The notes under the pieces are model-generated. The model made no database searches and was not told where the DNA came from. It saw only the letters and a program-made list of their open reading frames with translations. Positions 5,932 to 20,261 of a stretch of 35,740 bases of DNA are shown one piece after another. This DNA comes from Candidatus Kapaibacterium sp. GTDB lineage: Bacteria; Bacteroidota; Ignavibacteria; Kapaibacteriales; UBA961. The stretch covers positions 1 through 35,740 of the forward strand of contig JAFLBY010000012.1 of the NCBI GenBank assembly GCA_017302855.1, written 5' to 3'. Both the position numbers and the translations under genes were made by a program. Each line of letters begins with the position of its first letter. The first letter of the stretch is position 1.

Positions 5932-6939
5932 TTAAGCAATCGTCATAGTATGTTTTTTGTTGTTGAGAGATTCTTCATCAAAATTCAAATGTGCAATAAT
6001 TGAGCTAAGAAGTATATGGGGTATCCACAGCCGAGCTTCTGCTAAGATACCGCTTTTTAGCAAAACAAAAAAGTATGGTACAGAAAACAAAAAGAATAAA
6101 CGCAGTGTTTTTTTATTCTTCTCAGAAGCATGAACATATAGTAAAAATGTTAATCCGACAAAAAATAAGACACTCATATATTTAATAGTAGTAAATTCCG
6201 GCAAAGGACCTGCATAATACACCGCTTCTTCAAAACCATAATAAAGCCGCAATAGTGAATATGTCAATAATGATACACCGGCGACGGTAATGGGGGTTAC
6301 AAATTCTATTGTCCACAATTTTGAATGATTATGTACTCTGTAAAGTGCAAAAAGAAATGCCGAAAAAATAAATTGCGATTCTCTTGTCAGTATTCCTGCT
6401 ATGGTTAATAGAATTAATAAGGGCATCATTATATTGCGACGATGATGATAGCGCAATACCACATAGACCGAACTCAACAATACACTATAGGAAAGACAAT
6501 CATACGGTGTTATTGCATATTGTGTAAGGACTATAAAGGATGCGCACAGCAGCACATAAAACACTCTGTTCACTGATTGTAATTGAATAAAATGTAATTG
6601 AGTAATGCGACTAAGTATAAATGTTGAAAGACCAATACACAGTGAGTTAACAATGAACAAGGTATGATACATAGTCATTGTGTTAGTATGCAAATACTCC
6701 ATCATACGGTCGGGTCGTGTAAAAAAAGGAATATTTTGAATGATGCTATAAACAAAGATTGTTAGTTCACGCCCCAATACTCTATAGCGAAAAATTCCCT
6801 GTGTATATTTTTGTGTAAACTCTCCAAGAGTGAATGTTTCTATTGTCATATTGGTTATGAAACCATAATAGACAAAGACGGAAAGGCATAAAGAAAGCAG
6901 AACAAGTGTACCTTCTTCGAGTATTTTTTTGTAATTCAT
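5932..6939 (-). CDS. Polytopic membrane protein of unknown function
   Basis: A 335-residue protein made mostly of hydrophobic segments, with roughly eight to ten predicted transmembrane helices (for example VLLSLCLSVFVYYGFI near residue 13, LYRVHNHSKLW between helices, and MSVLFFVGLTFLLYVHAS late). A short charged loop, FRYRVLGREL, follows the first helix. The layout resembles membrane polymerases or GT-C type glycosyltransferases of cell-surface polysaccharide pathways, but I see no diagnostic catalytic motif and do not assign a function. It converges with the OmpA gene, with only 11 bases between stops and no clear bidirectional terminator there. The ATG at 6939 lacks a strong Shine-Dalgarno sequence. 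Confidence 0.7.
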   Translation of the reverse strand: MNYKKILEEGTLVLLSLCLSVFVYYGFITNMTIETFTLGEFTQKYTQGIFRYRVLGRELTIFVYSIIQNIPFFTRPDRMMEYLHTNTMTMYHTLFIVNSLCIGLSTFILSRITQLHFIQLQSVNRVFYVLLCASFIVLTQYAITPYDCLSYSVLLSSVYVVLRYHHRRNIMMPLLILLTIAGILTRESQFIFSAFLFALYRVHNHSKLWTIEFVTPITVAGVSLLTYSLLRLYYGFEEAVYYAGPLPEFTTIKYMSVLFFVGLTFLLYVHASEKNKKTLRLFFLFSVPYFFVLLKSGILAEARLWIPHILLSSIIAHLNFDEESLNNKKHTMTIA

Positions 6940-7000
6940 AGAACGGTAATAATGAGTAATGATGCGTTTTACCGTCGCAAATTACACAGAAAGTCTAAGA

Positions 7001-7033
7001 ATAAAAAAAGAGCATGCTTTTGCATGCCCTTTC
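7001..7033 (-). terminator. Rho-independent terminator of the DUF1800-DUF1501 operon
   Basis: Read on the minus strand, an AAAGGGCATGC / GCATGCTCTTT stem with a four-base loop is followed by a run of T. It lies about 25-55 bases downstream of the DUF1501 stop codon, the expected place for an operon-ending terminator. Confidence 0.8.
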
Positions 7034-7056
7034 TAAGTATCTCTGTTCATCAACAA

Positions 7057-8601
7057 TTATTTTACAACTGTCATTATTTTCGATGATTCCAATCTGCCGG
7101 ACTGTAAGACAATCATATAATTTCCTGAGGGCAATTCTTGGGTTGAAATATCCACAAAGTGCTGCCCGGGCATAATCCGATGCTTCGCTATGGTTCTGCC
7201 ATCCATTGTTGCAATGGTCAATTCTGCTTCCATGCCACTCACAACACCATACATAGGAATGGAGGTACGCGCATGAGCCGGATTAGGATAATTCTGCCCA
7301 ACGGAGAAGTATTGTTCAATACCATTGGTCTCAAACACACTTGTTGCCATTGAGGTAAATAGAGGAATTTGCTCAAAATAACGCGGTAAAGCATTCGGAG
7401 AGATACTTGATTCAGCCGCCCCATACCATTGCCCAAGCACCGAGGCATACACTTGACGAAAATCGTATTGCATTTTGATATTACCGGGACCTTCCAAATC
7501 TGTCAAATTTGGGTCGCTGCCATAGAATCCGCCTTTAACATTATTGCCGAATACCAATATCGGAGCAGCAGAGCCGTGGTCTGTGCCGGTTCCATTTGAC
7601 ACAACACGCCGCCCAAATTCGCTTATTGTCATCGTGACCACTTTATCTGCAAATCCAAATAATTCTGCGTCATTGTGAAATGCAGCCACCGCATTGGCAA
7701 AATTTTCATGGAGTGTTGCTTGTGCAGTCAATTGATTGGTATGGGTATCATAACCACCAACATTTATTATGTACATTTGTGTTTTCATCCCTGCCGCTAT
7801 AAGCCGTGCGATTGCCGCCAGACCTTGTGCCAAACCATTATTTGTGGGGTATGTCACTTTATTTTGCAGCACTTTTTTTCCTGCTTCTACAATTGCATTA
7901 GAAAACACATTCGATTGGCGAATTATCTCACGCACATACAATTCTTCATCGCCGGCATGAGTTTGTGCTACGGGATTATCATTGGGCGCATCGGGAATAA
8001 AATCAAGCGAAGAAACCGCAATACCCATATTGTTTTTTTCGCCGATTAATGTAGTGCTTAATGAAGTACCAAGCTCTATGGCAAATGGCTCTGCCGGCAT
8101 AGTTTCAGGAAATTCGGGGTGCATATCTTCCAAATATTTCGCATACCATCCGGCATTTTCAAATACATTCGCATCGGAACCGGAAAGCCATATATCAGTT
8201 GAACGAAAATGGGAAAGATTTTGATTAGGATAGCCGACATTTTGGACAATAGCCATTTGTTTTTTATCCCATAATGCTGCCAAAGGAGCTAATTTGGGAT
8301 GTAAACCCATTGTTGAAGATCCGGACAATTTTATGACTTCCTCTGCTTTAATCGCAAGCGAATCTGCTTCACGTGCTTTATAATATTCGGCATTGGTATA
8401 AGGAATTATCGTGTTTAAACCATCATTACCGCCGCTTAAACGTATCATAATCATGATGCGATCATTCGATGACAGTAAAGCACGAGCAAAAGGTGAATTT
8501 TCGGGCATTTTTCCAAAAGCACGCAAAGAAGGAAAGCCCATAGTCAATGGTAATGCAATGCCGGTTGAGGCTATATTTTTAAGGAAATTTCTGCGTTTCA
8601 T
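7057..8601 (-). CDS. DUF1501 family secreted protein with Tat-type signal and T9SS C-terminal tail
   Basis: A 514-residue DUF1501 protein (alkaline-phosphatase/sulfatase-like fold family of unknown activity). The N-terminus MKRRNFLKNIASTG is a twin-arginine-type signal followed by a hydrophobic stretch. Family-typical segments are RLSGGNDGLNTIIPY near residue 53, HFRSTDIWLSG near 130 and MTISEFGRRV...NGTGTDHGSAAP near 325. From about residue 432 (VGQNYPNPAHARTSIP) to the end it carries a T9SS type A sorting domain, ending LPSGNYMIVLQSGRLESSKIMTVVK-like, so it is predicted to be exported and anchored at the surface. AAGGAAGGA lies upstream of the ATG. It follows the DUF1800 gene by 19 bases, the usual partner order. 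Confidence 0.9.
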   Translation of the reverse strand: MKRRNFLKNIASTGIALPLTMGFPSLRAFGKMPENSPFARALLSSNDRIMIMIRLSGGNDGLNTIIPYTNAEYYKAREADSLAIKAEEVIKLSGSSTMGLHPKLAPLAALWDKKQMAIVQNVGYPNQNLSHFRSTDIWLSGSDANVFENAGWYAKYLEDMHPEFPETMPAEPFAIELGTSLSTTLIGEKNNMGIAVSSLDFIPDAPNDNPVAQTHAGDEELYVREIIRQSNVFSNAIVEAGKKVLQNKVTYPTNNGLAQGLAAIARLIAAGMKTQMYIINVGGYDTHTNQLTAQATLHENFANAVAAFHNDAELFGFADKVVTMTISEFGRRVVSNGTGTDHGSAAPILVFGNNVKGGFYGSDPNLTDLEGPGNIKMQYDFRQVYASVLGQWYGAAESSISPNALPRYFEQIPLFTSMATSVFETNGIEQYFSVGQNYPNPAHARTSIPMYGVVSGMEAELTIATMDGRTIAKHRIMPGQHFVDISTQELPSGNYMIVLQSGRLESSKIMTVVK

Positions 8602-8620
8602 TGTAGTAGTCCTTCCTTGA

Positions 8621-10264
8621 TTATGTTAATTGAAATTTTGCAAATTCAGCCGCCGCTTTTATGAATTTTCGGATTCGTGCATCCGGACGCTGCGCCACAT
8701 CGTCAATATTCCATTCATAATCTTTGCCGCCATCAAGAATTGTATCAAATAAAACAGTAAACTCAGCATCCGATGGCGGAACATTTAATAAAAATTCTGC
8801 CATTTCTTGGGATAATTTTTTGAGATCATTCGGTGTAGAGAATTGTTTGGCAAATGCTATGGCATCAAAAACAAAAACTGTTTGTTGTTGTGCACCTGCG
8901 CCGGAACGTATTTTGCCATCCATAATGTCCATTATCCATTTTTGTCTTTGCGGCAATGTCGAAGTGCTTGTCCATGTTCTGCCGCCTTCCCAACCTTTCA
9001 CATTGGGCGGATCGAAAAGTGTTTGTCCTTGGGAATCTATTATGCCGAGCAATAACTGTGTCTGTCTGCCAACACGTGAAAAATCGAAATCAACAATATT
9101 TTTAAGACCTAATCCACGAACGGCTCCGATAAAAAATTCTACAGGACTTTTATGTTTAGCTCCTATATTTTCGAGTGCAAAAAAATGCTTACTTCGGAGT
9201 AATTGTTCAATCACAGTGCGTATATTCCATTTACTGTCAATAAATGTTTGAGCCATTTGTTCCACAATAGTCTTATCCGGAATATCATAGACAAATTCTC
9301 TGTACAATTTCACACAAATATATTTAGCTATACTATTGGTGCGCTCTGAAAATACTATATCCACAATATCATTTGCTTTCCATTTGCCCGTTTTTCCCAT
9401 GAGTGTTTTATCGCCGCCATCCCATCGCAGTGCATTGAATTGTGATGACAATGAAGAATATAATGCACCTTTATCACTTGGTTTTATATCCCATCCGCTT
9501 AAACCGCGAGCGGCTTGCGCAACATCATCTTCGGAATAATTGGGTTTTCCATCCCAATCATAGACTCCACAGGTAAATAATTCCATTAACTCACGAGCAT
9601 AATTTTCATTAATTTGATTTCTTTTACCAATGACAAAATTTTTACGACCATCCAAATAAATAAGCATTGCCGGGTCAATGGTAACTTGATATGTAAAGTC
9701 ATGAAAATTACCGAGCATATAGGTACGAATAAGTAATTCCTGCGTGTACATATATTGTGCAAAATTCACCACCTGCAATTCACTGGTAAAATGATTAGAC
9801 CAAAATGTGATTAATTTTTCTTGAAGTGAAACCGGTGACAGGGCTATAGTTTTTGCTCGCCATCTTCTGAGCATATCCTTATGTTTGTTCACAAGAGTTT
9901 GCCATGCTTGCACAGTTGCTGTATCCGACGACGCAGGGCGAATTTGGGGTTCTTGTCCGGCAATTTCCTGTATATCGCTCACCGAAGGTTCAAAGGAGGT
10001 GAAGAGTTTATTGAGAGTTGTCTCTAAACCGTCTTGTACGGCTTGTCGTATTTCCGACGGAGTTGGTCCTACCATGCAGCGACGGAGCAAATGAGCAGCT
10101 TTGGCAAAATCCCACACATCATTTCCTGAAGGTGACCAAGGCTCTAAGCCGGCTTCCGTCCGCATGGCAAATTCGGGCGACACATAGTCAGTATGACCTC
10201 TCTGTGACTTGCATGTAGAGTGTGGTTGTTGGGATAGAGGAAAGAGTAATGATCTACGTTTCAT
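8621..10264 (-). CDS. DUF1800 family protein
   Basis: A 547-residue DUF1800 protein, the standard operon partner of DUF1501 proteins. Recognisable segments include AAHLLRRCMVGPTPSEI near residue 50, FWSNHFTSEL and ENYARELMELFTCGVYDWDG in the middle, and LFDPPNVKGWEGGRTW in the C-terminal third. The molecular function is not known; large secreted DUF1800/DUF1501 pairs are often proposed to act at the surface or in polymer metabolism. I placed the start at the ATG at 10264, where GGAG sits six bases upstream. Upstream in-frame ATG (10270) and TTG (10276) codons touch or overlap that ribosome site. No convincing signal peptide is visible at the N-terminus (MKRRSLLFPLSQQPHST). Confidence 0.88.
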   Translation of the reverse strand: MKRRSLLFPLSQQPHSTCKSQRGHTDYVSPEFAMRTEAGLEPWSPSGNDVWDFAKAAHLLRRCMVGPTPSEIRQAVQDGLETTLNKLFTSFEPSVSDIQEIAGQEPQIRPASSDTATVQAWQTLVNKHKDMLRRWRAKTIALSPVSLQEKLITFWSNHFTSELQVVNFAQYMYTQELLIRTYMLGNFHDFTYQVTIDPAMLIYLDGRKNFVIGKRNQINENYARELMELFTCGVYDWDGKPNYSEDDVAQAARGLSGWDIKPSDKGALYSSLSSQFNALRWDGGDKTLMGKTGKWKANDIVDIVFSERTNSIAKYICVKLYREFVYDIPDKTIVEQMAQTFIDSKWNIRTVIEQLLRSKHFFALENIGAKHKSPVEFFIGAVRGLGLKNIVDFDFSRVGRQTQLLLGIIDSQGQTLFDPPNVKGWEGGRTWTSTSTLPQRQKWIMDIMDGKIRSGAGAQQQTVFVFDAIAFAKQFSTPNDLKKLSQEMAEFLLNVPPSDAEFTVLFDTILDGGKDYEWNIDDVAQRPDARIRKFIKAAAEFAKFQLT

Positions 10265-10626
10265 AGTCATCTCCAATTATGAATGATAAATGTTCGCACT
10301 ATGACTCACAGCACTATGAATCGGTTTAACAACAATCATCACAGCAAAATGTTACAGGAAACCACTATTTCTCAATCTAAGTCACTGCTTCGGCAATAGA
10401 CCACTATTCACCCCTACGGCATAATTTCATTATTTTTGCGATTGATTAATGAGGAAACATCATAAAAGTATGAGTACATTTTTACCTATTCTGATAATGC
10501 TGTCTCCATCGCATAATCAGGCAAATGTGTAAACAGCGCCAAACACTTAACAGAAAAGTAGAAAGAAAAACAGTAAGATCATACACATGAAATAGTATTA
10601 AGCATTCACCGAGTAAGGACTATACA
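10265..10626. other. Divergent intergenic region between the DUF1800 operon and the ferritin-like gene
   Basis: No gene was found in these 362 bases. A TATTTTTG octamer at 10431-10438 (plus strand) fits the TAnnTTTG element of Bacteroidota promoters, but no TTG lies at the right distance upstream, so I do not call a promoter. AAGGA at 10615-10619 is the ribosome site of the next gene. Confidence 0.5.
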
Positions 10627-11208
10627 TTGAAATTACAGCATAAAGAATTGGTTGATTTATTACAAATGGCGTATTCCGCCGAAAAAGCCGCAGCATTTGC
10701 CTATCAAGGACATGCAGGCTCGGTAAAAAATGAGGATGAAAAAAGTGCTATTCATCAAATCGAAATTGATGAATGGAATCATCGTAAAGAAGTTCTTGAT
10801 ATTATGAATTATTATGGAATACCGATTTCAACATATTATGAGATAAAGTTCCATATAATTGGAAAAATAATCTCCTATAGTTGTTATGTCATTGGTTGGT
10901 TTATGCCATATTACTTTGCCGGAAGATTAGAAAGTGGTAATGTATGCGAATATTTTCGTATGATGCACTATTTCCATGAATTAGATATTCATGAGCACAA
11001 TGATGTACTCTATGAAATGGGGATTAAGGAAAAAGAGCATGAAGTATATTTTCTTCAGAAAATTAAAAATAAAAAATTGCTTCCTTTTTTTGAAACATTA
11101 TTTTCATGGGGCATATCAAAAAGTTATAATGATGTGGATTTAGAGAAAAAATATCCGGTGGAAGAATCTAAAGTATATTGTAAAAACAGTATAGAAAAAC
11201 ATACATAA
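10627..11208 (+). CDS. Ferritin-like di-iron domain protein (Coq7/rubrerythrin-like helical bundle)
   Basis: A 193-residue helical protein with the iron-ligand pattern of ferritin-like carboxylate-bridged di-iron proteins: Glu19 in the first helix, the E-x-x-H motif DEWNHR (Glu49, His52), a third helix around FHELDIHEHND, and a second E-x-x-H in KEKEHEVYF. Two of the helices are separated by a hydrophobic stretch (IIGKIISYSCYVIGWFMPYYFAG), reminiscent of membrane-associated demethoxyubiquinone hydroxylase (Coq7). A role in oxidation or iron handling is inferred. The start is TTG, chosen because AAGGA lies seven bases upstream and the conserved first helix begins at once; there is no alternative ATG near. 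It stands alone between opposing genes. Confidence 0.7.
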   Translation: MKLQHKELVDLLQMAYSAEKAAAFAYQGHAGSVKNEDEKSAIHQIEIDEWNHRKEVLDIMNYYGIPISTYYEIKFHIIGKIISYSCYVIGWFMPYYFAGRLESGNVCEYFRMMHYFHELDIHEHNDVLYEMGIKEKEHEVYFLQKIKNKKLLPFFETLFSWGISKSYNDVDLEKKYPVEESKVYCKNSIEKHT

Positions 11209-11488
11209 ACCATGAAATCAGCCACAATAAACTATTGTAATGCCGAGGTTCGGCAGTGTTCAATCAATATTCAGATTGGTGCTCATAATCTCGGTAAGTT
11301 GTAATTTTTGCGGTTATCCAAACATCCTTAGTACATTTCTCACGCATTGTCTAAAGCCGTCAATCTTGATCAAATAGTGGAAAGTGAATGCAACTGTTTC
11401 GGGCTTTGATTTTGAGTGGTTTTTTTGATATTCTGACCACCTAACATTGCCTGATTTGTACTAAGCTGCGATGGTGGTTGGATTCCTG

Positions 11489-12004
11489 TTAATGGAAATA
11501 ATCGTCAATATATTCATCAAGCTCGTTTTCATTTGTCAACTCTATGAGGTTGTCCATCTCTTTGTTAACAGTAACATTAATTCCTTTTTTGTACACTATC
11601 ATTATGGAAAGAAGCCCTGCTTTTGCGGCTGATAAGTTTGTTGCCGTACCTTTGTGTTCCAAAAAATATCGTGAATAGCTTGCCATGTAAAGTCCAAGTA
11701 AATGAGTATTTTTGTCGCATATTTTTATGAGTTTTTCTGTAATGAGAATATTGACTGTGGGGCTGCCTTCAACCCATCGCATCACAAAAGCATTCACTTT
11801 TTGTCTTTTGTCAATTTCTTTATTGAGATCTGTTTCCTCAAGCCATTTTGCAGCATCAATTATTGCATTTTCATACTTTGCATAATCCTCTCTTGATTTT
11901 AGTTCCACGTTTTGTGGGACTTCAAATGTAGTCTGTCCTTGCACAGTCAAAATGCTGATTAGTAGGAAAAGTATGCCTACTGCTAATGTTTTACCTTTTG
12001 TCAT
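11489..12004 (-). CDS. Small secreted protein of unknown function (island gene)
   Basis: A 171-residue protein with a clear signal peptide (MTKGKTLAVGILFLLISILTVQGQ). The mature part is helical and charged (YENAIIDAAKWLEETDLNKEIDKRQKV; FVMRWVEGSPTVNI; LGLYMASYSRYFLEHKG), with an acidic C-terminus (ENELDEYIDDYFH). I do not recognise a named family. It is the last gene, in reading direction, of a series of minus-strand orphan genes separated by dispersed repeats. Its stop codon lies inside a TAACAGG motif, as at the gene at 12620. The 280 bases downstream (11209-11488) hold no gene that I can see. Confidence 0.7.
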   Translation of the reverse strand: MTKGKTLAVGILFLLISILTVQGQTTFEVPQNVELKSREDYAKYENAIIDAAKWLEETDLNKEIDKRQKVNAFVMRWVEGSPTVNILITEKLIKICDKNTHLLGLYMASYSRYFLEHKGTATNLSAAKAGLLSIMIVYKKGINVTVNKEMDNLIELTNENELDEYIDDYFH

Positions 12005-12426
12005 AATGATATTTTTTAGAATGAATAAATAGAGTGCGCTCTTTATTTATGTACTATCGTAGTAATGACAACCGTGATATTGATTTATCTTTGGTCAAAA
12101 AAAACAGAAAATTCCAAAAACATGACTTCCGCGTTGAACTCGAATTTCATAAAATCCGTTCGTTTTCGCTATGTGCTTTAGTCCGGTACTTTTTGTAAGT
12201 CTTGACTCAATTCAAATGACCAAAGAATTTTCGCTTTTTCTTTCGTGTTTTGTATGGTAAAGAAGTCTTAAACGTCGTTCTTATAGAATTTTATCTTTCT
12301 ATAGTTTTGATTTCTGACCACACTGCAAAGTTACAAAAGTTTCCCTTCAAATAAAACATAAAACTTGAGTTATTTTGTCTGAAAATTGTAATCCGCATCC
12401 CCGAATGGCGGCACATCACTCGTATT
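12005..12426. other. Non-coding stretch of the accessory island
   Basis: No credible gene is seen between the start of the secreted protein and repeat copy 1. The only open frame here reads into the repeat and is not supported by a start site or composition. Confidence 0.5.
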
Positions 12427-12634
12427 CCCGTAATGCACCATTCATTTCTCCCAAAACTACAAAAGTTTGCGTATCTATCCAAATATGAGAAAACTAAATT
12501 ACACTGTACCGGGGTAAACACAGTGATTTAGAGATTCTTCACGGTGATCCCCCCCCGTTTTATACCATATCAAACATTTTGCTAAAAAATTATCGATGAG
12601 TTGGCAATAGTTACGCCTGTTATGCGGTCGGCTT
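12427..12634 (-). repeat. Dispersed island repeat, copy 1
   Basis: This copy shares long near-identical blocks with copies at 13163, 14789 and 18012. On the plus strand these are CGCAATGCACCATTCATTTC-like sequence, CCCAAAACTACAAAAGTTTG, TATCTATCCAAATATGAGAA, then GGAGTAAATACAGTG-like, GATGAGTTG and a GCGGTCGG end. It is the most diverged copy and carries a run of eight C at 12549-12556. It starts exactly at the 3' end of the gene ending at 12620, whose last residues (RKPTA) are encoded by repeat sequence. Confidence 0.85.
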
Positions 12635-13138
12635 TCTTGTCTTTTTCGAAATACGTTGTTCATAGTCACCAATGAGCTTGTTTAAAATTTCAATTTTCTC
12701 AATGTCCAATGGTTCTGTATGGCAAAGTTGGTCAAGCATGATGTTGATATCATTAAACTGATTGTCTGACGTGATTTTTCCTTTTTCAATTATCTTGCTT
12801 ACACGTTGGAAATAGGATTTAAAAATGTCAATGTCATACTTGGTTTTGTCTTGAAGATATTTGTTAAATTTTAAGTCACTTATTTCTATTTGCATTTCTG
12901 TCAAGTCACGAAACCATTGTTTCAGCCTTGTCAGTCGTCCTTTCAGATAATTTTCTTCTGTTTGTACTTTAAGTCCTTTGAAATGTTCTATTGGGTCAAA
13001 GTCAGCTGTCTTGATTTGCATTTCCTTGTTGTCAATGTAGTAGTCAAGTGTCGCCAAGACCAAGTCCCGATACTTTTTAAGTTCTGCCTGTTTTTCGTCT
13101 TTATTAAGTTTGTTGTCCGTCATTTGTCTTCTTGTCAT
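12620..13138 (-). CDS. Hypothetical helical protein (island gene)
   Basis: A 172-residue, highly charged, probably all-helical soluble protein (for example NKLNKDEKQAELKKYRDLVLATLDYYIDNKEMQIK and LKQWFRDLTEMQIEISDLKF). There is no signal peptide, membrane segment or motif that I recognise. A second in-frame ATG at 13123 (MTDNKLNKDEK) is an equally plausible start. The final residues RKPTA and the stop codon lie within the first bases of repeat copy 1 (CCGACCGCATAACAGG on the minus strand). It is flanked by repeat copies 1 and 2 and no neighbour suggests a role. Confidence 0.6.
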   Translation of the reverse strand: MTRRQMTDNKLNKDEKQAELKKYRDLVLATLDYYIDNKEMQIKTADFDPIEHFKGLKVQTEENYLKGRLTRLKQWFRDLTEMQIEISDLKFNKYLQDKTKYDIDIFKSYFQRVSKIIEKGKITSDNQFNDINIMLDQLCHTEPLDIEKIEILNKLIGDYEQRISKKTRKPTA

Positions 13139-13162
13139 TTAGACTGACCGCCACCACTCCAA

Positions 13163-13370
13163 TTCCCGCAATGCACCATTCATTTCTCCCAAAACTACAA
13201 AACTTTGCTTATCTATCCAAAAATGGGCAAGGGAAATTTCTCTGTGCCGGAGTAAATACAGTGTTCTAGCGATTCTTCATTGTGATTCCACCTCACGCTT
13301 TATACTATTATCATTCATTTTTCTAAACAATCACTGATGAGTTGTGCAAGAGTTGCCGATGTTAGCTGTA
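13163..13370 (-). repeat. Dispersed island repeat, copy 2
   Basis: This copy matches copy 3 over most of about 208 bases, with scattered substitutions. It sits between the gene starting at 13138 and the gene ending at 13401. Just beyond its low-coordinate end the plus strand reads GACCGCCACCA (13145-13155), an imperfect inverted match to the GTTGGCGGTC at the opposite end of copy 3. The unit may therefore have inverted ends. Confidence 0.85.
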
Positions 13371-13400
13371 GCAGTTCATTCGTTCAATGTCTTAATTGTT

Positions 13401-13763
13401 TTATTCTGTGAGCCAATTATCATTTCTAAATCCATGTGCATAAATTGCCTCTCCTGAAGAATAATCTTCAGGAAGTAGAGATACAGCAATTTGGGAGTTA
13501 TCAATAAAACGAATAGTTAAGGCTTTTCCTGGTTCAAAGGTAACGTCTTTAACAATTTTTGTTATTTGGTTACAAAGCAAGTCACGAAAACCATTATTCC
13601 CTGAAGTGATTTCAGTTTTATTGTCATTTACCGTGAGTGGATTTGTGACATTTATTGTTGGTCCATCAAATTTTAATTGTAGATAATCCTGAACAAACTC
13701 AATTGAACTTAATTGGCAATCAACTAATTCATTCCAAAATTCGGATGTAATTTCGTCACTCAT
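13401..13763 (-). CDS. Small hypothetical protein (island gene)
   Basis: A 120-residue soluble protein without signal or membrane segment. The order of segments (SIEFVQDYLQLKFDGPTINV ... FRDLLCNQITKIV ... ALTIRFIDNSQIAVSLLPEDY ... GEAIYAHGF) looks like a small alpha/beta domain of a widespread uncharacterised family; I recall the pattern but cannot name it with confidence. It has an acidic N-terminus (MSDEITSEFWNELVD). It is a single-gene unit between repeat copy 2 and the next island gene, with no ribosome site stronger than an A/T-rich leader. Confidence 0.65.
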   Translation of the reverse strand: MSDEITSEFWNELVDCQLSSIEFVQDYLQLKFDGPTINVTNPLTVNDNKTEITSGNNGFRDLLCNQITKIVKDVTFEPGKALTIRFIDNSQIAVSLLPEDYSSGEAIYAHGFRNDNWLTE

Positions 13764-14014
13764 ATTAATTTTCAGTTAGTCGGAATACATTTTTACTATT
13801 GTACATAACGCTTCTGATCTTTGTGTTGTTAGGGAATTAGGATTACGTCAGTCCATAACCGAAGCCCAATAATTGCAATATTGTTGATATTTGATTCATA
13901 AGCTAAATTCATAATTTCCTGACTGAACTGAAGTACAATGAAGAACAAATGTTGAGGTAATACTCGTGATGCTCCAATAATGCCAACCCTAATGTTAGTT
14001 CTTTCCTTATTCTG

Positions 14015-14665
14015 TCACCAAGGAATTCCTATCCAATTTTCTAATTTCCGTTTGTCTTGGTCAACAGCTAACCAAGTATTTACACTTTCAATATTTTTTT
14101 TGTCATATGCAGTCAAATACTGTAAATGAAGATTTTCGCCCTCATTTAAATTTGGTATCGAAGTCCTAAATCCATTTTCTTGCATTTTAGTAATTGAATT
14201 GTAAAAGTCAACTTTGTTTTCAAGTCTTGCAGGAAATTCATCGTCATTTTTTGCTCTGTAATTTAAAGCTTCTCCGTCTTCTGTTCCAATATGTAAACTC
14301 CAATTCTCATTATATACTTCAATTGCGTCTAAACTTTCTCCACAAGCAGTGTCAAACTTAACTTTTTCGACTGGATTTTCAAACAGGCAAAATATCTCTA
14401 ATGATTTGCTTTCGCCACTCCTTTTTTTAGTTTTCCAAATCCATCCAAAAGAATCTGCCACTGTCTCACCCTTGTAAAGTGGTTGTCTGATTTTGAATTC
14501 TATAATCTCAATTCTGTGTCCTACTGTTTCAAAAATATGTGATTTGCCATTTTCATAAGTGTTGTGTCCAACAAGATGAAGTGATGTGCAGTCTGTAACC
14601 AAACCACAAATAACATTCCCTATTGGCGTTTCAAACGTTCTTGTTATAATATTTGTCTGTGTCAA
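14015..14665 (-). CDS. Hypothetical protein (island gene)
   Basis: A 216-residue soluble protein that I do not recognise. It is rich in beta-type segments early (TPIGNVICGLVTDCTSLHLVGH, HRIEIIEFKI) and ends in aromatic/charged sequence (ENWIGIPW). The start is TTG at 14665, because a stop lies a few codons upstream and no ATG occurs before the conserved-looking body. No Shine-Dalgarno is visible, so the true start remains uncertain. It is separated from the 13401 gene by 251 bases that hold no gene, and from the ASCH remnant by repeat copy 3. Confidence 0.55.
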   Translation of the reverse strand: MTQTNIITRTFETPIGNVICGLVTDCTSLHLVGHNTYENGKSHIFETVGHRIEIIEFKIRQPLYKGETVADSFGWIWKTKKRSGESKSLEIFCLFENPVEKVKFDTACGESLDAIEVYNENWSLHIGTEDGEALNYRAKNDDEFPARLENKVDFYNSITKMQENGFRTSIPNLNEGENLHLQYLTAYDKKNIESVNTWLAVDQDKRKLENWIGIPW

Positions 14666-14707
14666 ATTTGGATCAGTAAATTGTCACAAAAAGTTTGCAC
14701 ATAACAT

Positions 14708-14990
14708 AAGCCAAGTTTGCGCTGTTACAGAATGCAAATGGAGTTTATCAATCAAGTACTTTTGCAAATATATAGATGCGCCTCCAACATTCCCGCAATG
14801 CACCATTCATTTCTCCCAAAACTACAAAAGTTTGCGTATCTATCCAAATATGAGAAAAGTAAATTTCTCTGTGCCGGAGTAAATACAGTGTTCTAGACGT
14901 TCTTAGCTGTGATTCCACCCCAAGGTTTATATCATTTGCAAACAAATTATCGATGAGTTGTGCAATAGTTGCAGCTGTTGGCGGTCGGCT
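14708..14990 (-). repeat. Dispersed island repeat, copy 3 (longest)
   Basis: The core at 14789-14990 matches copies 1 and 2. A left extension at 14708-14788 (GTTACAGAATGCAAA, GGAGTTTATCAATCAAGTAC, TTTTGCAAATATATAGATGC on the plus strand) is shared almost exactly with copy 4. Its high-coordinate end GTTGGCGGTCGG lies directly next to the stop codon of the ASCH remnant. On the minus strand a reading frame stays open through the core (LLRHREIYFSHIWIDTQ, then FVVLGEMNGALRE). Confidence 0.88.
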
Positions 14991-14993
14991 TTC

Positions 14994-15344
14994 TCATTTG
15001 TCCGTCAAGTAAACGAATGATTGTGGTGGAAATAAGTTAAAATCTGTTCTCAAGCATTTGGGTGTTTTGTATTTTTTTGCCTTTTTTATCTTAATGGCAA
15101 AACCTTGCTCTTTGTCTGCAAAATACTTGTAGTAAAAGTCTTCTGATATTCCCGAATGCTCTTGAGTTAATTCCCATAGTGTTTGGAGGTCATAGTTTAA
15201 AATATCTTCAATTTCAAACTCACCAATTACTTGTTGAACGGGAGACGAAGCATAAACTAATACCGATTTTATATTTGTATTCTTGAATATTGATTTTCTA
15301 AACTCAAATTTCTTTGAGCCATCAAATATCTTATTTGTAATAGT
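14994..15344 (-). pseudogene. 5'-truncated ASCH-domain (PUA-like) protein remnant
   Basis: An open minus-strand frame of about 116 codons with no usable start codon. It encodes KIFDGSKKFEFRKSIF, VLVYASSPVQQVIGEFEIED, LWELTQEHSGISEDFYYKYF, GFAIKIKKAKKY and FPPQSFVYL, the order expected of ASCH-domain proteins (PUA-like RNA-binding fold). About ten N-terminal residues containing the usual first strand are missing, and an in-frame TAA stands immediately upstream (15345-15347). It lies 60 bases downstream of the AlbA_2/KTSC gene and ends against repeat copy 3. A functional gene starting at a rare ATT or ATA codon cannot be fully excluded, but truncation is simpler. Confidence 0.7.
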
Positions 15345-15406
15345 TTAAATTTTCCCTCTATTTAATCTCCTTGAAGAATGCTTTTTCCAAATGCTATCCG
15401 CAAGTT

Positions 15407-17254
15407 TTATTTCTTTTGATATTCAAATTTACGCTTGATTTCATTCATAAAATATGCCCCTATTGCAGGAGAACTCATTAACTCTTCAAATACCCTTTCT
15501 GGTACATCAACATACTGATAAATGGCACCGTGATGAAATTCTATTTCTAAAATGTGTGCATTTTTGTCGTACCCAACAGACGCAATGTTTGAAGACGCCA
15601 CAGGAATTCTTTTAATTCCAAAATGATGGTCTCCTGAAACTAGGGTAAATAATTTCTTACCTAAATCAGTAGTGTAATACTTTTGATCTTTACTTGTAAG
15701 CTTGTTGGGTAACGTGAAATATAACCACCCCAAATCGATCAAAGGTTTTATATGGTTTTGATAATTTTTGGTGTTTTTGTATAGTCCGATTTTCTCAAAT
15801 AGCTCATCTCTTGATTTTGGCGTTGTACAATAGTTCAAAACCATTTTGGTTAAATCGTTAATTTTTTCCCTTATGGCTTCTCTATCTCTGTCTCCAATTT
15901 CAGAGACAGAGAGACTGAGATAGGTGTTTATCTCATTCAAGTCATTGAATTTTTTGGTGATATAATTGGCTTCATCATTGGCTCTCTTGTATTGAGCATT
16001 GGGCATTAAAGGGTGAATTGGAAGAATACACAAAAAGTAAGCATTATTTTCATCCGTCTCAAAAACAGGCGGTGGTGAACCGTTTTCTTCCATACTACTA
16101 TGAATTATAGGCAATCCTGTTCCTCTACCTTCTGTCAATTTCAATTCCTTAAAAAACCCACCAAGTTTTCGATTTCTATAATCTCTTGCTACTACTCTTT
16201 GTTTGTTTAGCATCGCTTGATTAATTGGCGGCATAGGACCAGGGAAACTCAATATTTCAATTTTGTCTTTATGTATTTGAATCTCCACCGGATTTTCTCG
16301 TTCATAGCTTTTATGATAAACCGCATTGACTATAGCTTCTTCTACAGCCTGAAAGGGATAGTTGAAGAAGCGAATGGATTCTGCTTGTATTTTAGATTTT
16401 ACCACCACTTCTTCTACGATATTGGTTTTGAAATACTGCAACACCTCTCTGATTTGCTGAATAATAGAACCTGTAAATACTTTTTCTGTGTAGTCTTTTC
16501 CAACCTCATTTTTATGAATGATCAATTCAATTCTTGCTCCCGAAAAAAAATCTTCGGGATGTTCATTAAATAAAAGTAAACCGGCATTTGTAGGTCGTAA
16601 TAATTCGTCAGAACCCTTGACTATCATCAGATGCCTACACAATTCTGCGAATGGAATTTTGGTGCTTTCATCATACAAAGTACTCATGACTTCTTTTAAA
16701 AAGGTCTGAATCAAACGTAAACTCAAATCATCAAGGGTTGCAGTTTGGTTAATTCGGTCATCAAAAGGGATACGAGCCGTAAGTTCAATAAGTCGTCTTT
16801 CATCATCAGAACCCTCTTTAACTTTTACAGTTTTTGAGCCTTGTTTGATGAACATTGTTCTTTCTGTTCTTTTTTCACTTAAACTTACAGGAGCTTTGTA
16901 AGGTCTGTTATCTCCAGCTGGGGCAAATACAACCAATATGTGCTTCCCGTTTATTAAATACGGTTGAAAAACAGGAATATAAACAGGGATTAACTTATGA
17001 GATAATTCAATCAGTTTTTTCTGAATGGCATCTAATTCTTGAACTTGTAAACCTATAGGTGGCAGCTTAGCTTTCCCATTTTCTTCTTCAACTCCAATAA
17101 TGATATAACCACCATCCCAATGGTTAATATCATTGGCGTATGCACATAAAGTATGCATGATATCCTCAGGATTCCATCCTTTTTTCAACTCAATCCGATC
17201 CCATTCAACGGTATTTCCGTTCAGTAATTCATCTATGTTTATGGGTAATGCCAT
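15407..17254 (-). CDS. AlbA_2 (Schlafen-like) / HATPase-type / KTSC fusion protein
   Basis: A 615-residue protein. The N-terminal AlbA_2 (DivAA_4) domain covers about residues 10-150 (VEWDRIELKKGWNPEDIMHT; GGYIIIGVEEENG), a putative nucleic-acid-binding fold. The middle has ATP-binding HATPase_c_4-like features: EEAIVNAVYHKSY near 306 and GRGTGLPI near 375. A probable winged-helix segment follows (SRDELFEKIGLYKN...LGWLYFTL). The last 70 residues from about 544 (RIPVASSNIASVGYD ... GAIYQYVDVPERVFEELM) are a KTSC domain, found in lysyl-tRNA-synthetase-related and nucleic-acid-associated proteins. It starts eight bases after a 59-residue gene downstream of an XRE regulator. A regulatory or defence role is inferred. 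Confidence 0.85.
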   Translation of the reverse strand: MALPINIDELLNGNTVEWDRIELKKGWNPEDIMHTLCAYANDINHWDGGYIIIGVEEENGKAKLPPIGLQVQELDAIQKKLIELSHKLIPVYIPVFQPYLINGKHILVVFAPAGDNRPYKAPVSLSEKRTERTMFIKQGSKTVKVKEGSDDERRLIELTARIPFDDRINQTATLDDLSLRLIQTFLKEVMSTLYDESTKIPFAELCRHLMIVKGSDELLRPTNAGLLLFNEHPEDFFSGARIELIIHKNEVGKDYTEKVFTGSIIQQIREVLQYFKTNIVEEVVVKSKIQAESIRFFNYPFQAVEEAIVNAVYHKSYERENPVEIQIHKDKIEILSFPGPMPPINQAMLNKQRVVARDYRNRKLGGFFKELKLTEGRGTGLPIIHSSMEENGSPPPVFETDENNAYFLCILPIHPLMPNAQYKRANDEANYITKKFNDLNEINTYLSLSVSEIGDRDREAIREKINDLTKMVLNYCTTPKSRDELFEKIGLYKNTKNYQNHIKPLIDLGWLYFTLPNKLTSKDQKYYTTDLGKKLFTLVSGDHHFGIKRIPVASSNIASVGYDKNAHILEIEFHHGAIYQYVDVPERVFEELMSSPAIGAYFMNEIKRKFEYQKK

Positions 17255-17262
17255 AGTGTTTA

Positions 17263-17442
17263 TTAAACCAAATTAAAATCCACAGCCAATCCATTTGGTA
17301 ATTTTTCATCAAACCAATGCCATATATCAAAACGACATGTTCCTTTTTCCCACCAACAAAAATCTAATTCTATTTCATCATCTGAATTAGTTGGGATGTC
17401 TCCAAATGCTTCCCACATTCTTTCAAGGTCTAAGTATGTCAT
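17263..17442 (-). CDS. 59-residue acidic, tryptophan-rich protein
   Basis: A short ORF whose ATG overlaps the TGA of the XRE gene (ATGA) and whose stop is eight bases before the AlbA_2/KTSC start. The protein reads MTYLDLERMWEAFGDIP, then DDEIELDFCWWEKGTCRFDI and WHWFDEKLPNGLAVDFNLV: 59 residues, acidic, with four Trp. The layout WEAFGDIP...DDEIE...F...WHWFDE matches, from memory, a widespread family of small uncharacterised proteins with no assigned function. Translational coupling to both neighbours makes it a genuine gene. An antitoxin, adaptor or inhibitor role is possible but unproven. Confidence 0.8.
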   Translation of the reverse strand: MTYLDLERMWEAFGDIPTNSDDEIELDFCWWEKGTCRFDIWHWFDEKLPNGLAVDFNLV

Positions 17443-17750
17443 TTCTTCTTATTCGCTTTAATATATTTTGCTCTTTCTTCTGCTACTTTTAATGCTTGTA
17501 TTCCTAAATCTTCGTCTTGAATTTCATATAAAATCTTGTCGCTAAGGAAAGAAACCAACAATTCGTCAGCGTTGTAGCCGTATATGTCGGCAAGTTTCAG
17601 AACTACTTCTTTTGTAATTCTGCGCTCTCCACGTTCCATTTTACTCAAAATAGCAACGTCAATGTCGAGCAAAGCAGCAACTTTCCGCAATGGAAGTTTC
17701 TTTTCTTCTCTAATGTGTCTTAGCTTTTCGCCTATTGTTTCTGTTGACAT
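17439..17750 (-). CDS. XRE-family helix-turn-helix regulator
   Basis: A 103-residue protein with a Cro/C1-type HTH at about residues 8-62 (GEKLRHIREEKKLPLRKVAALLDIDVAILSKMERGERRITKEVVLKLADIYG, quoted here only as the span 7-58; key residues are LRKVA, LSKMERGER and LADIY). The basic C-terminus is AEERAKYIKANKKK. Similar short regulators are common beside restriction-modification genes in Bacteroidota. It is the first gene of an operon with the 59-aa and AlbA_2/KTSC genes. A 17-bp palindrome overlaps its start codon, which suggests autoregulation. No Shine-Dalgarno is present and the mRNA may be nearly leaderless. Confidence 0.85.
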   Translation of the reverse strand: MSTETIGEKLRHIREEKKLPLRKVAALLDIDVAILSKMERGERRITKEVVLKLADIYGYNADELLVSFLSDKILYEIQDEDLGIQALKVAEERAKYIKANKKK

Positions 17751-17765
17751 AATGTGTCAAAATTA
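17744..17765 (-). promoter_or_regulatory. Overlapping promoter element and palindromic operator of the XRE operon
   Basis: TTGACA-TAATG-TGTCAA (17744-17760) is a perfect 6-bp inverted repeat with a 5-bp spacer spanning the XRE start codon. On the minus strand TAATTTTG (17765-17758) fits the TAnnTTTG promoter element and lies just 7 bases before the ATG, predicting an almost leaderless transcript. No TTG occurs at the usual upstream distance. Autorepression is inferred. Confidence 0.5.
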
Positions 17766-18242
17766 GGGAAATATTTTTGAATTGTCGCCATTTATTTCAA
17801 ATTCTTTTCAACATTCTTGTCGAGCGTAATGAAAAAATGGCTTTTTTGGTTTTTTGAGCGTTGGCTTGTGTGTCGGGAAAAACTAAATGTGCCATTGCGG
17901 GTCGGTCTTTTCATACTGACGCACATCGGAAAGCCGGATTTGCGCAGTTACAGAATGCAAACGGAGTTTATCAATCAAGTACTTTTGCAAATATATAGAT
18001 GCGCCTCCAACATTCCCGCAATGCACCGTTCATTTCTCCCAAAACTACAAAAGTTTCATAACACAGACAAATCTCAAGTCTTAAAATTTCATCATGATAG
18101 AGCATATCATTAGTTTGCTGTGAATATCCCGTCTCTTGAAGATTATATTTCACCCATGAGTTTCGTATCATCATTCCAAAGTATCACTTTGCACTGCCAT
18201 AATATCACGTTTTTTTTATACTCACCACAATCACACTTTATG
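17766..18242. other. Gene-free stretch at the island edge
   Basis: It contains repeat copy 4 and otherwise no gene. GCGGGTCGGTCTTTTCAT at about 17898 resembles the GCGGTCGGCTTTCTCAT end of copy 3. Open frames across it are repeat-derived. Confidence 0.5.
17931..18056 (-). repeat. Dispersed island repeat, copy 4 (partial)
   Basis: It shares GTTACAGAATGCAAA, GGAGTTTATCAATCAAGTAC, TTTTGCAAATATATAGATGC and CCCAAAACTACAAAAGTTT with copy 3 almost without mismatch, then stops matching at about 18056. It therefore carries the extension plus only the first third of the core, and marks the outer boundary of the accessory island next to the housekeeping block. Confidence 0.85.
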
Positions 18243-18273
18243 CAAAAAAAAAGCCCATGATATATCATGAGCT
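18243..18273 (-). terminator. Rho-independent terminator of the purS-gatA gene block
   Basis: On the minus strand AGCTCATGATA / TATCATGGGCT forms an 11-bp stem with one wobble pair, followed by nine T. It lies 30 bases after the stop codon of the 18303 gene and closes that operon. Confidence 0.88.
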
Positions 18274-18302
18274 AAGAGAATAGTTGATGTATGTACAAAG
18301 AC

Positions 18303-18827
18303 TTACTCTTTATCTTTTACTACTTCAATATAGGAATCAATAATTGTTTTGAACAATATTATCATCGCGCCTTGCGCTTCTTCGCTTATGATGTCCTCTT
18401 CGGGCATTTCCTCATCTTCGTCATAGGGTTCATTAGAAATAGAGGACAAAGCATAAGACAAAAGGTGCGGTTGCGGATATTCTTCCATCATTTTTTGCAC
18501 AACATCCGTTTCACCTTGCATGGATAATTCATCCAAACGGTGCATGAGTTCGATATTTTTTTGCTCATTATCGTCGAGCATATCTTCATTTACCATAGGC
18601 ATGGTCGGATAATGTTCTTTGAAGCAATTCCAGAGCACCACGCCCGTAAACATAAGAGTTTCGGCTTCCATTTGGCTTTCCATTTCGCCTGCATTAGCCA
18701 TCATATACGCTAAAACCGAGGGCTGTTCAGTCGCCATAGTGTCCATTAACTCTGTTATTTGTTCTTCGCCTAATTCCGCTGAGCGATTATACACATCGGT
18801 AATTGTTTGATCATTGATAAGTATCAT
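18303..18827 (-). CDS. Acidic hypothetical protein, coupled to gatA
   Basis: A 174-residue, very acidic, mostly helical soluble protein (ELGEEQITELMDTMATEQPS; NEDMLDDNEQKNIELMHRLDEL; PYDEDEEMPEEDIISEEAQ). No known motif or signal peptide was recognised. The start is fixed by AAGGA six bases upstream of ATG. That ribosome site begins within the gatA stop codon (TAAGGA), so translation is probably coupled to gatA. It is the final gene before a strong terminator. The function is unknown; its position suggests co-expression with the gatA/tat genes rather than with the island. Confidence 0.75.
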   Translation of the reverse strand: MILINDQTITDVYNRSAELGEEQITELMDTMATEQPSVLAYMMANAGEMESQMEAETLMFTGVVLWNCFKEHYPTMPMVNEDMLDDNEQKNIELMHRLDELSMQGETDVVQKMMEEYPQPHLLSYALSSISNEPYDEDEEMPEEDIISEEAQGAMIILFKTIIDSYIEVVKDKE

Positions 18828-18836
18828 AGTTATTCC

Positions 18837-20261
18837 TTATGAATGGAAAAGTTGTTGAAAACGATGTGCAATAGAAAGTAATCGCTCATCTTGAAAAAGA
18901 GAAGTCTGTAATTGCATACCTACGGGAAAACCATTGGCAGCATTGCCTGCGGGTATGCTGATAGCCGGTATGCCGGCAAGATTAGCCGACACCGTAAAAT
19001 AATCGGAAAGATACATCGCAATCGGGTCATTGAGTTTTTCGCCGAACTTAAATGCTGTTGTTGGTGTGGTTGGCAAAAACAACGCATCCGCTTGGGAAAA
19101 AATGTGTTCATAACCGTCATAAATAAGTCGTCGCGCTTGTTGTGCTTTTTTGTAATAAGCATCATAGTGTCCGGCTGAAAGAACATACGTTCCAAGCATA
19201 ATGCGCCTTTTTACTTCCATACCAAAGCCCTGTGAACGGGTTAATGTCATGATATCATCGTCATCGTTATTGATTTCTGCCCGGAAGCCATAGCGAATGC
19301 CGTCGAAGCGCGCCAAATTTGATGATGCTTCGGCTGTTGCCAGCACATAATATGTAGGAATCCACGCATCATTGGCGGGAATGTGAGCATTGACTAAGGT
19401 GATGCCATTATCTTGGAGCAAATCAAGACATTTTTTATAGACCTCCAATACTTCGGGTGAACAATCCTTGATGATTTCTTCGGGCAACACGGCTATTGTG
19501 AGTGGTTTTTGAGCATATTCATCCAATGTTGCCATTGCGCATGTGGGGGCTAAGTTTGCTGATGTTGCATCATTGGGATCATGTCCCGATAAGGCATCCA
19601 TGACGGCGGCTGTTGTCGGAATATCGGGTGCGAATATTCCCACTTGGTCAAGCGATGAAGCAAATGCCACCAATCCGTAGCGTGATAATCTGCCATAACT
19701 TGGTTTATAGCCCACAATCCCGCAAAAAGCTGCGGGTTGGCGCACCGAGCCGCCTGTGTCCGACCCGAGCGAAGCATGAGCATGACCCGCCGCTACTGCT
19801 ACCGCCGACCCTGATGATGAACCGCCGGGAACATAGTCGCCATTCAATGGATGAAGTGTTTTGCCAAAAGCGGAGTTTTCACCCGATGAACCCATAGCAA
19901 ATTCATCCATATTCGTTTTGCCAATGATAATTGCACCGTGAGCGGCTAAACGTTCCACCACCGTAGCGTCATAAACAGGACTATATCCGCTGAGTATTTT
20001 TGAGGCGCATGTCGTGGGAAAATTCCGTGTGGATAGATTATCTTTCACTGCCACAACCATACCGTCAAGAGCAAGTGCATTGCCCGCTGCGTATCGTGCA
20101 TCACTTTGTTGTGCTTGCAATGACGCATTATCGCTGTCAATGGCAAGAAAATGGTTCAATGAGCGGCGTTGGTTAATATCATTTACAATTTCTTGAGTAA
20201 TGGCTGTAAATGTTGTTGTGCCGTTTCTGACGGCATTATGTGAATCGGAAAATAGTCGCAT
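18837..20261 (-). CDS. gatA: Aspartyl/glutamyl-tRNA(Asn/Gln) amidotransferase subunit A
   Basis: A 474-residue amidase-signature enzyme. The Ser-cisSer-Lys triad is visible: Lys73 in VAVKDN, Ser148 in GGSSSGSA and nucleophile Ser172 in SDTGGSVRQPA. The Lys-to-nucleophile spacing of 99 is the same as I recall for characterised GatA. LSRYGLVAFASSLDQVG further identifies GatA rather than other amidases. In GatCAB it liberates ammonia from glutamine to amidate Glu-tRNA(Gln) or Asp-tRNA(Asn). gatB and gatC are not in the window. It follows the TatB-like gene by 12 bases and is followed by the acidic 174-aa gene, so it belongs to this operon. No truncation is seen. Confidence 0.95.
   Translation of the reverse strand: MRLFSDSHNAVRNGTTTFTAITQEIVNDINQRRSLNHFLAIDSDNASLQAQQSDARYAAGNALALDGMVVAVKDNLSTRNFPTTCASKILSGYSPVYDATVVERLAAHGAIIIGKTNMDEFAMGSSGENSAFGKTLHPLNGDYVPGGSSSGSAVAVAAGHAHASLGSDTGGSVRQPAAFCGIVGYKPSYGRLSRYGLVAFASSLDQVGIFAPDIPTTAAVMDALSGHDPNDATSANLAPTCAMATLDEYAQKPLTIAVLPEEIIKDCSPEVLEVYKKCLDLLQDNGITLVNAHIPANDAWIPTYYVLATAEASSNLARFDGIRYGFRAEINNDDDDIMTLTRSQGFGMEVKRRIMLGTYVLSAGHYDAYYKKAQQARRLIYDGYEHIFSQADALFLPTTPTTAFKFGEKLNDPIAMYLSDYFTVSANLAGIPAISIPAGNAANGFPVGMQLQTSLFQDERLLSIAHRFQQLFHS

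Follow-up and report, generated by a model that had tools for sequence, protein, structure and literature searches.

In integrons, the first bases of a cassette match the R'' core of that cassette's own attC site. The I2 helix of the integrases has been described as an adaptation to single-stranded attC (PMC7790495), and I2 is regarded as a defining domain of IntI (PMC9668308, PMC2426708). For the Bacteroidetes, IntegronFinder 2.0 newly reported a complete integron in Salinibacter, only In0 having been reported earlier (PMC9024848). Searches of the openly licensed literature, preprints excluded, yielded no prior account of Bacteroidota cassette arrays of a non-IntI kind. Here we describe a gene island in Candidatus Kapaibacterium sp. 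(GCA_017302855.1; 3.58 Mb in 298 contigs, assembly 94% complete; hereafter G000), lying in a window that comprises the first 35,740 nucleotides of contig JAFLBY010000012.1. It is quite probably a satellite cassette array of an integron-like system, with a tyrosine recombinase encoded on another contig, C201, and belonging to a Bacteroidota clade distinct from IntI, as its presumed driver; the array is assigned to the system of that recombinase by the identity of its repeats. We have high confidence in the integron-like architecture of the system. The sequence itself shows the repeats, their match to the integrase-linked attI, the attI, attC and cassette logic of the recombinase family, the lack of I2, and the turnover of units at the locus.

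The system shares several features with the chromosomal (super)integrons run by IntI, such as that of Vibrio cholerae: a recombinase beside attI, cassettes in one orientation with integron-like cargo, cassette starts complementary to their own R'' core and, at the level of the family, foldable attC. It differs from them in that the recombinases lack I2, form their own clade and have an extra N-terminal domain; in that attI often lies downstream of the recombinase gene and co-oriented with it; and in that, in this genus, an attI-like segment with a predicted promoter is dispersed and separates satellite units, with repeats that form no attC fold. The window array resembles CALIN in consisting of orphan units without an adjoining integrase, but in its repeats an attI-like copy is joined to an attC-type core, in place of a foldable attC, and the CALIN combination of at least two attC sites with no nearby integrase was not found in window positions 10501-19500. 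Recombinases of the Xer/XerA type (NF040815, described by NCBI as 'site-specific tyrosine recombinase/integron integrase') also lack I2, supply the best NCBIfam model and are among the closest solved structures; the family differs from them in its link to attI and cassettes, in its extra N-terminal domain and in forming a clade apart from the Xer proteins that these genomes encode. The Delta-attI-type cassettes of mobile integrons likewise hold attI sequence within gene cassettes; these belong to IntI systems with resistance cassettes (PMC12901181), whereas here tens of copies are dispersed in a chromosome.

Layout and gene content of the island

The island occupies window positions 11489-18056. 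A first-pass annotation of this DNA had described it as a series of single-strand orphan genes, and in the list of open reading frames every gene it named indeed lies on the minus strand. In array order the genes are as follows:

17439-17750, minus strand: unit 1, XRE-family HTH protein, 103 aa (open reading frame list, Pfam)
17263-17442, minus strand: unit 1, 59-aa open reading frame, no family (open reading frame list, Pfam)
15407-17254, minus strand: unit 1, SLFN_AlbA_2/KTSC protein, 615 aa (open reading frame list, Pfam)
14015-14665, minus strand: unit 2, 216-aa orphan (open reading frame list, Pfam)
13401-13763, minus strand: unit 2, 120-aa orphan (open reading frame list, Pfam)
12620-13138, minus strand: unit 3, 172-aa helical orphan (open reading frame list, Pfam)
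11489-12004, minus strand: unit 4, protein of 171 aa whose start resembles a signal peptide, its position retained in the sister genome (open reading frame list, genome comparison)

Pfam matches above cut-off are limited to two proteins, the XRE protein and the SLFN_AlbA_2/KTSC protein. The annotation had pictured a series of genes punctuated by repeats. The repeat copies themselves are confirmed, but none is found on the far side of the 171-aa gene, and the genes for the 216-aa and 120-aa proteins belong to a single unit, with neither a repeat nor a foldable attC between them. A possible attC in the interval between these two genes (13795-13995) was ruled out on folding (z +1.28). An Rfam search of the island returned chance matches only, far below gathering scores, and no integrase is found near the array.

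The composite repeat

A repeat search recovered a 148-nt repeat in three window copies (12424-12571, 13162-13309 and 14789-14936; 79-88% identical) and a 126-nt repeat in two (14708-14833 and 17931-18056; 95% alike). The two overlap and are modules of a single composite repeat, which in the direction of the genes, on the minus strand, runs A, X, B, with C added in two window copies. Module A starts with an RYYYAAC-like motif, an attC-like core (consensus start CGCTAACAGCGGTAACTCTTGCACAACTCATC), and the consensus of module B is TATTTGGATGGATAAGCAAAGTTTTGTAGTTTTGAGGAAATGAATGACGTTTTGCGTCAATATGAGAG. The copies are:

17931-18072, minus strand: copy that opens the array, B (attI-like, bearing the promoter pattern) and C, without A; B profile match at 18019-18072
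14708-14986, minus strand: composite repeat A-X-B-C (A 14935-14983, B 14796-14850; repeat search, B profile)
13157-13369, minus strand: composite repeat A-X-B (A 13300-13366, B 13169-13223), no fold as attC (repeat search, folding)
12424-12637, minus strand: composite repeat A-X-B (A 12560-12624, B 12432-12485), holding the right-hand breakpoint of the exchange with the sister genome (repeat search, genome comparison)

The first copy of an array can be B without A and the last A without B; thus, the unit is B-gene-A. Within B lies TTTGG-N(19-20)-TAGTTTTG, which we take to be the Bacteroidetes promoter pattern. This would fit B serving as a predicted promoter, comparable to Pc, for the first cassette. 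A hairpin, GATGTGCCGCCATTCGGCGGCACATC, directly after B opens some units (window 12424-12440 and several B copies in loci L109, L106 and L115), and in other repeat copies it stands before X.

The first-pass annotation had offered two possibilities for the repeats, namely attC-like sites or another kind of gene-capture repeat. The former was not borne out structurally: the window repeat does not fold as a single-strand attC (z = +1.27), and an arm-complementarity scan combined with folding found no hairpin attC in window 10501-19500. In the two window units tested, complementarity between a unit's own start and end was absent. Gene capture is better supported, by the units, by the repeat copy linked to a recombinase and by the turnover described below.

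A sequence search of G000 with one window copy gave 43 matches, and a profile of B found about 45 copies on 15 of the 16 contigs examined (as contig stretches), always on one strand per contig. Between consecutive copies in G000 and its sister genome, the longest open reading frame runs in the direction of the repeat in 48 of 49 units. The clustering of the copies, their single strand per contig and this shared direction argue that their placement is not due to chance. The dispersed repeat is thus real, and the finding that the annotation had named as damaging, copies scattered at random without gene units between them, is not what the genome presents, as copies elsewhere also separate one-direction units. 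For instance, the stretch at 8.6-14.8 kb of contig C277 consists of one-strand orphan genes flanked by housekeeping genes. In the satellite arrays, start-to-end complementarity is modestly enriched (8 of 22 units with at most 2 mismatches, against 13%), and some satellite units do end in their own matching core. Because the window repeats do not fold and the complementarity is modest, we read the island as a satellite array on attI-like sites, whose units may at present move by way of the recombinase or by homologous recombination.

A linked recombinase and its attI-like site

Three tyrosine recombinases were found in G000. The end of the gene for one of them (C201:3860-4927(-), 355 aa) is directly followed by an X-B copy at C201:3608-3742, 77-81% identical to the window copies in alignment, and then by type I methylase and specificity genes. 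The annotation's proposal to search the genome for further copies and a tyrosine integrase therefore yielded both. The protein has a catalytic domain, with the conserved catalytic residues present, a SAM-like domain, and an N-terminus of about 80 residues without a Pfam family. Its best NCBIfam model, NF040815, scores 205.6 against a cut-off of 220. A structure model (mean pLDDT 79.8, pTM 0.49) has XerA and IntI4 as its best matches and is too uncertain to add more. A viral origin of the recombinase was rejected, with a single close IMG/VR fragment and other matches at no more than 45% identity. The cassette site adjoining the recombinase folds better than shuffles (z -2.7). The first cassette here (L047:351-3516(-)), with the methylase and specificity genes, is defence-type cargo.

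No IntI scores above cut-off in G000; TIGR02249 falls below its cut-off, with the insert region skipped. Similarly, IntI4 aligns to the C201 recombinase in two pieces, IntI4 residues 203-249 being skipped. The distance from the K-box to the H-box is 58 aa in this protein and 58-61 residues in 80 of 80 members of its family, against 62-67 in measurable Xer proteins and 100 in the two IntI measured; by this measure, all 80 members are read as lacking the I2 insertion of IntI. A quick tree, which carries a long-branch warning, sets the family (support 86; 99 for the subgroup of the G000 recombinase) apart from IntI (100) and from Xer (99). The family thus has no I2, the additional domain of the integrase in IntI-defined integrons, and as integrons are now defined the system falls outside them on its integrase domain.

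We compared three genomes of the genus, G000, its sister G001 and G002. The G001 recombinase is 100% identical to that of G000, and about 40 B copies are seen on the G001 contigs examined. In both genomes X-B beside the recombinase is identical up to GA|GTTAGC, after which the cassettes differ: the 100 nt before GTT are 100% identical and the 100 nt after it 46%, about the level of two unrelated sequences in that alignment. X-B thus looks like an attI-like site with differing first cassettes in the two genomes. In G002, both the C201-type recombinase and the repeat are absent, and the presence of the repeat therefore tracks that of the recombinase in the genus (n=3 genomes).

The recombinase family in Bacteroidota

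A scan of genome contigs shows that the recombinase clade is spread across Bacteroidota: of 296 genomes sampled from the phylum, 98 have the family (E up to 1e-50) and 84 have IntI above cut-off. An attI profile seeded with 17 downstream sites chosen by eye locates the motif at fixed places beside the recombinase in 49 of 82 family loci. In 26 of these it lies downstream, in the orientation of the gene; in the other 23 it is upstream and divergent, the placement of classical integrons, and these 23 did not contribute to the seeds. The profile gives 54 real hits against 1-8 per shuffled set, recognizes the family's sister subgroup as well and has no match in the Xer and IntI control loci. The motif is absent in the other 33 loci, including that of Maribacter litopenaei (L177), in which neither an array nor the motif was found; an array is thus not a feature of every family member.

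As in the two sister genomes, congeneric pairs are conserved up to GTT and unrelated beyond it, so that the conserved crossover core and varying first cassettes of attI in IntI-defined integrons are seen in the family too. Further downstream, the ten bases that open the first cassette reappear as their reverse complement with a mean of 1.05 mismatches, as against 2.41 in shuffled tails, and the match between this start and the core is perfect in 17 of the 40 loci with enough sequence. In 28 of 40 loci, parsing by this start/core rule closed one cassette or more, versus 14% of pseudo-starts. In Flavobacterium difficile (L125) 13 consecutive cassettes were closed, their sites mostly 135-136 nt long, and as single strands, family cassette sites of this type form better folds than shuffled sequence does (z -3.1 to -6.1). 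Thus, attC hairpins and complementarity between cassette start and R'' are present at the level of the family and beside the recombinases of G000 and G001, and are missing from the window repeats.

The clade appears to run integrons in Bacteroidota without a part thought essential for integron enzymes. We lean toward seeing in it a second integron class in this phylum, in which a clade that never had I2, or lost it, would recombine attI with folded attC, would be about as common as IntI and, in this genus, would also have seeded the chromosome with attI-like sites that bear the predicted promoter and act as dispersed satellite arrays. If this is true, the role of the I2 helix in single-stranded attC recombination becomes directly testable, a family with attI, attC and arrays and no I2 would be a candidate for an ancestral or convergent state, and surveys of integrons based on IntI may have overlooked many cassette arrays of Bacteroidota.

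Unit turnover and alternative readings

The annotation had predicted variation of the locus among relatives, and G001 does differ by whole units. It retains window 5969-12630 at 96.5% and 18012-18232 at 95%, and in place of the intervening 5.4 kb it has a single unit of about 0.65 kb, which comprises A-X-B and two small genes, both interrupted. On the left, the exchange breaks where B ends; on the right, it breaks within A-X-B, with about 70% likeness across A, about 96% across B and a gradual rise of identity. An exchange of 5.4 kb for 0.65 kb with both breaks in repeats indicates that whole units turn over at this locus. G002 provides no clean empty site for comparison, since it is missing genes that flank the island. 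The two small genes of the G001 unit (L102:1936-2561) have in-frame stops, and it looks like a decaying unit; a phosphoribosyltransferase-like open reading frame and a DprA-like gene (L102:34-1469) adjoin the G001 island. Synteny with G001 breaks at window 18232-18242, one side lying on contig C23 and the other on C87; the island of C277 is likewise split over two G001 contigs. The islands may be points of rearrangement, or contig ends produced by the repeats.

In the mechanism that we propose, cassettes in circular form would be inserted by the recombinase at G|TTRRR, in attI itself or in an attI-like site, every cassette carrying its own attC, whose R'' core would match the first bases of that cassette. 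The attI-like X-B beside the recombinase bears the promoter pattern, facing outward. Copies of X-B, mostly fused in the window to an attC-type left core (A), are found on about 15 contigs, where they set apart units with their own promoter pattern, and relatives differ by the gain, loss or exchange of such units. We infer that the C201 recombinase, and not homologous recombination between the repeats, built the window array; catalysis by this protein and promoter activity of B are presumed from sequence.

Alternatively, the repeats might now be passive, units changing, once the repeats were seeded, only by homologous recombination or deletion between copies. The 79-95% likeness of the copies, the lack of a foldable attC in the window copies and the position of islands at synteny breaks would agree with this, and the gradual rise of identity across the right breakpoint fits homologous recombination equally well. 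It leaves unexplained, however, how units of one gene, all oriented alike, arose, why B matches the attI linked to the integrase, and why some satellite units end in their own matching core, and we regard this account as rather unlikely. Far less probable still is that B is a mobile promoter or a non-autonomous transposon-like repeat, unrelated to the recombinase, that inserts near orphan genes. Its promoter pattern, its position upstream of genes and its presence on about 15 contigs would suit such an element, yet in two genomes the site downstream of the recombinase is itself B, B resembles the attI motif of the family, G002 is without both the repeat and the recombinase, and no transposon-like ends or target duplications were noticed on unsystematic inspection.

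The reading of the first-pass annotation is partly supported, the repeat being of the gene-capture kind; its classical form, a chromosomal integron or CALIN under IntI, has next to no credibility here. One-direction single-gene units with intervening repeats, and the frequency of IntI genes in the sampled genomes of the phylum (84/296), would speak for it. However, G000 has no IntI above cut-off, the window repeats do not fold, the part that they share with the integrase locus is attI-like, and the linked recombinase is not an IntI, having a K-to-H distance of 58 aa instead of 100 and falling outside IntI in the tree. The satellite array of an integron-like system with its own recombinase clade remains the reading that we prefer.

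The array beside the recombinase in G001 has hairpin sites within its first 8 kb, and its predicted cargo, comprising an SMR exporter, a pterin-binding enzyme, a GmrSD-type restriction system, a Gp49/HTH pair and a glyoxalase, is integron-like. Defence-type cargo is represented by GmrSD/HEC-06 (L106:14331-16028(-)) and the toxin-antitoxin-like Gp49/HTH pair (L106:16452-17124(-)). The SMR-family exporter (PF00893; L106:18490-18819(-)) lies near the pterin-binding, DHPS-like protein (PF00809; L106:19250-19981(-)), both on contig C56 of this environmental relative and within about 8 kb of the recombinase. The pair recalls qacE/sul of class 1 integrons, the DHPS-like protein being a candidate Sul-like protein or an ordinary FolP.
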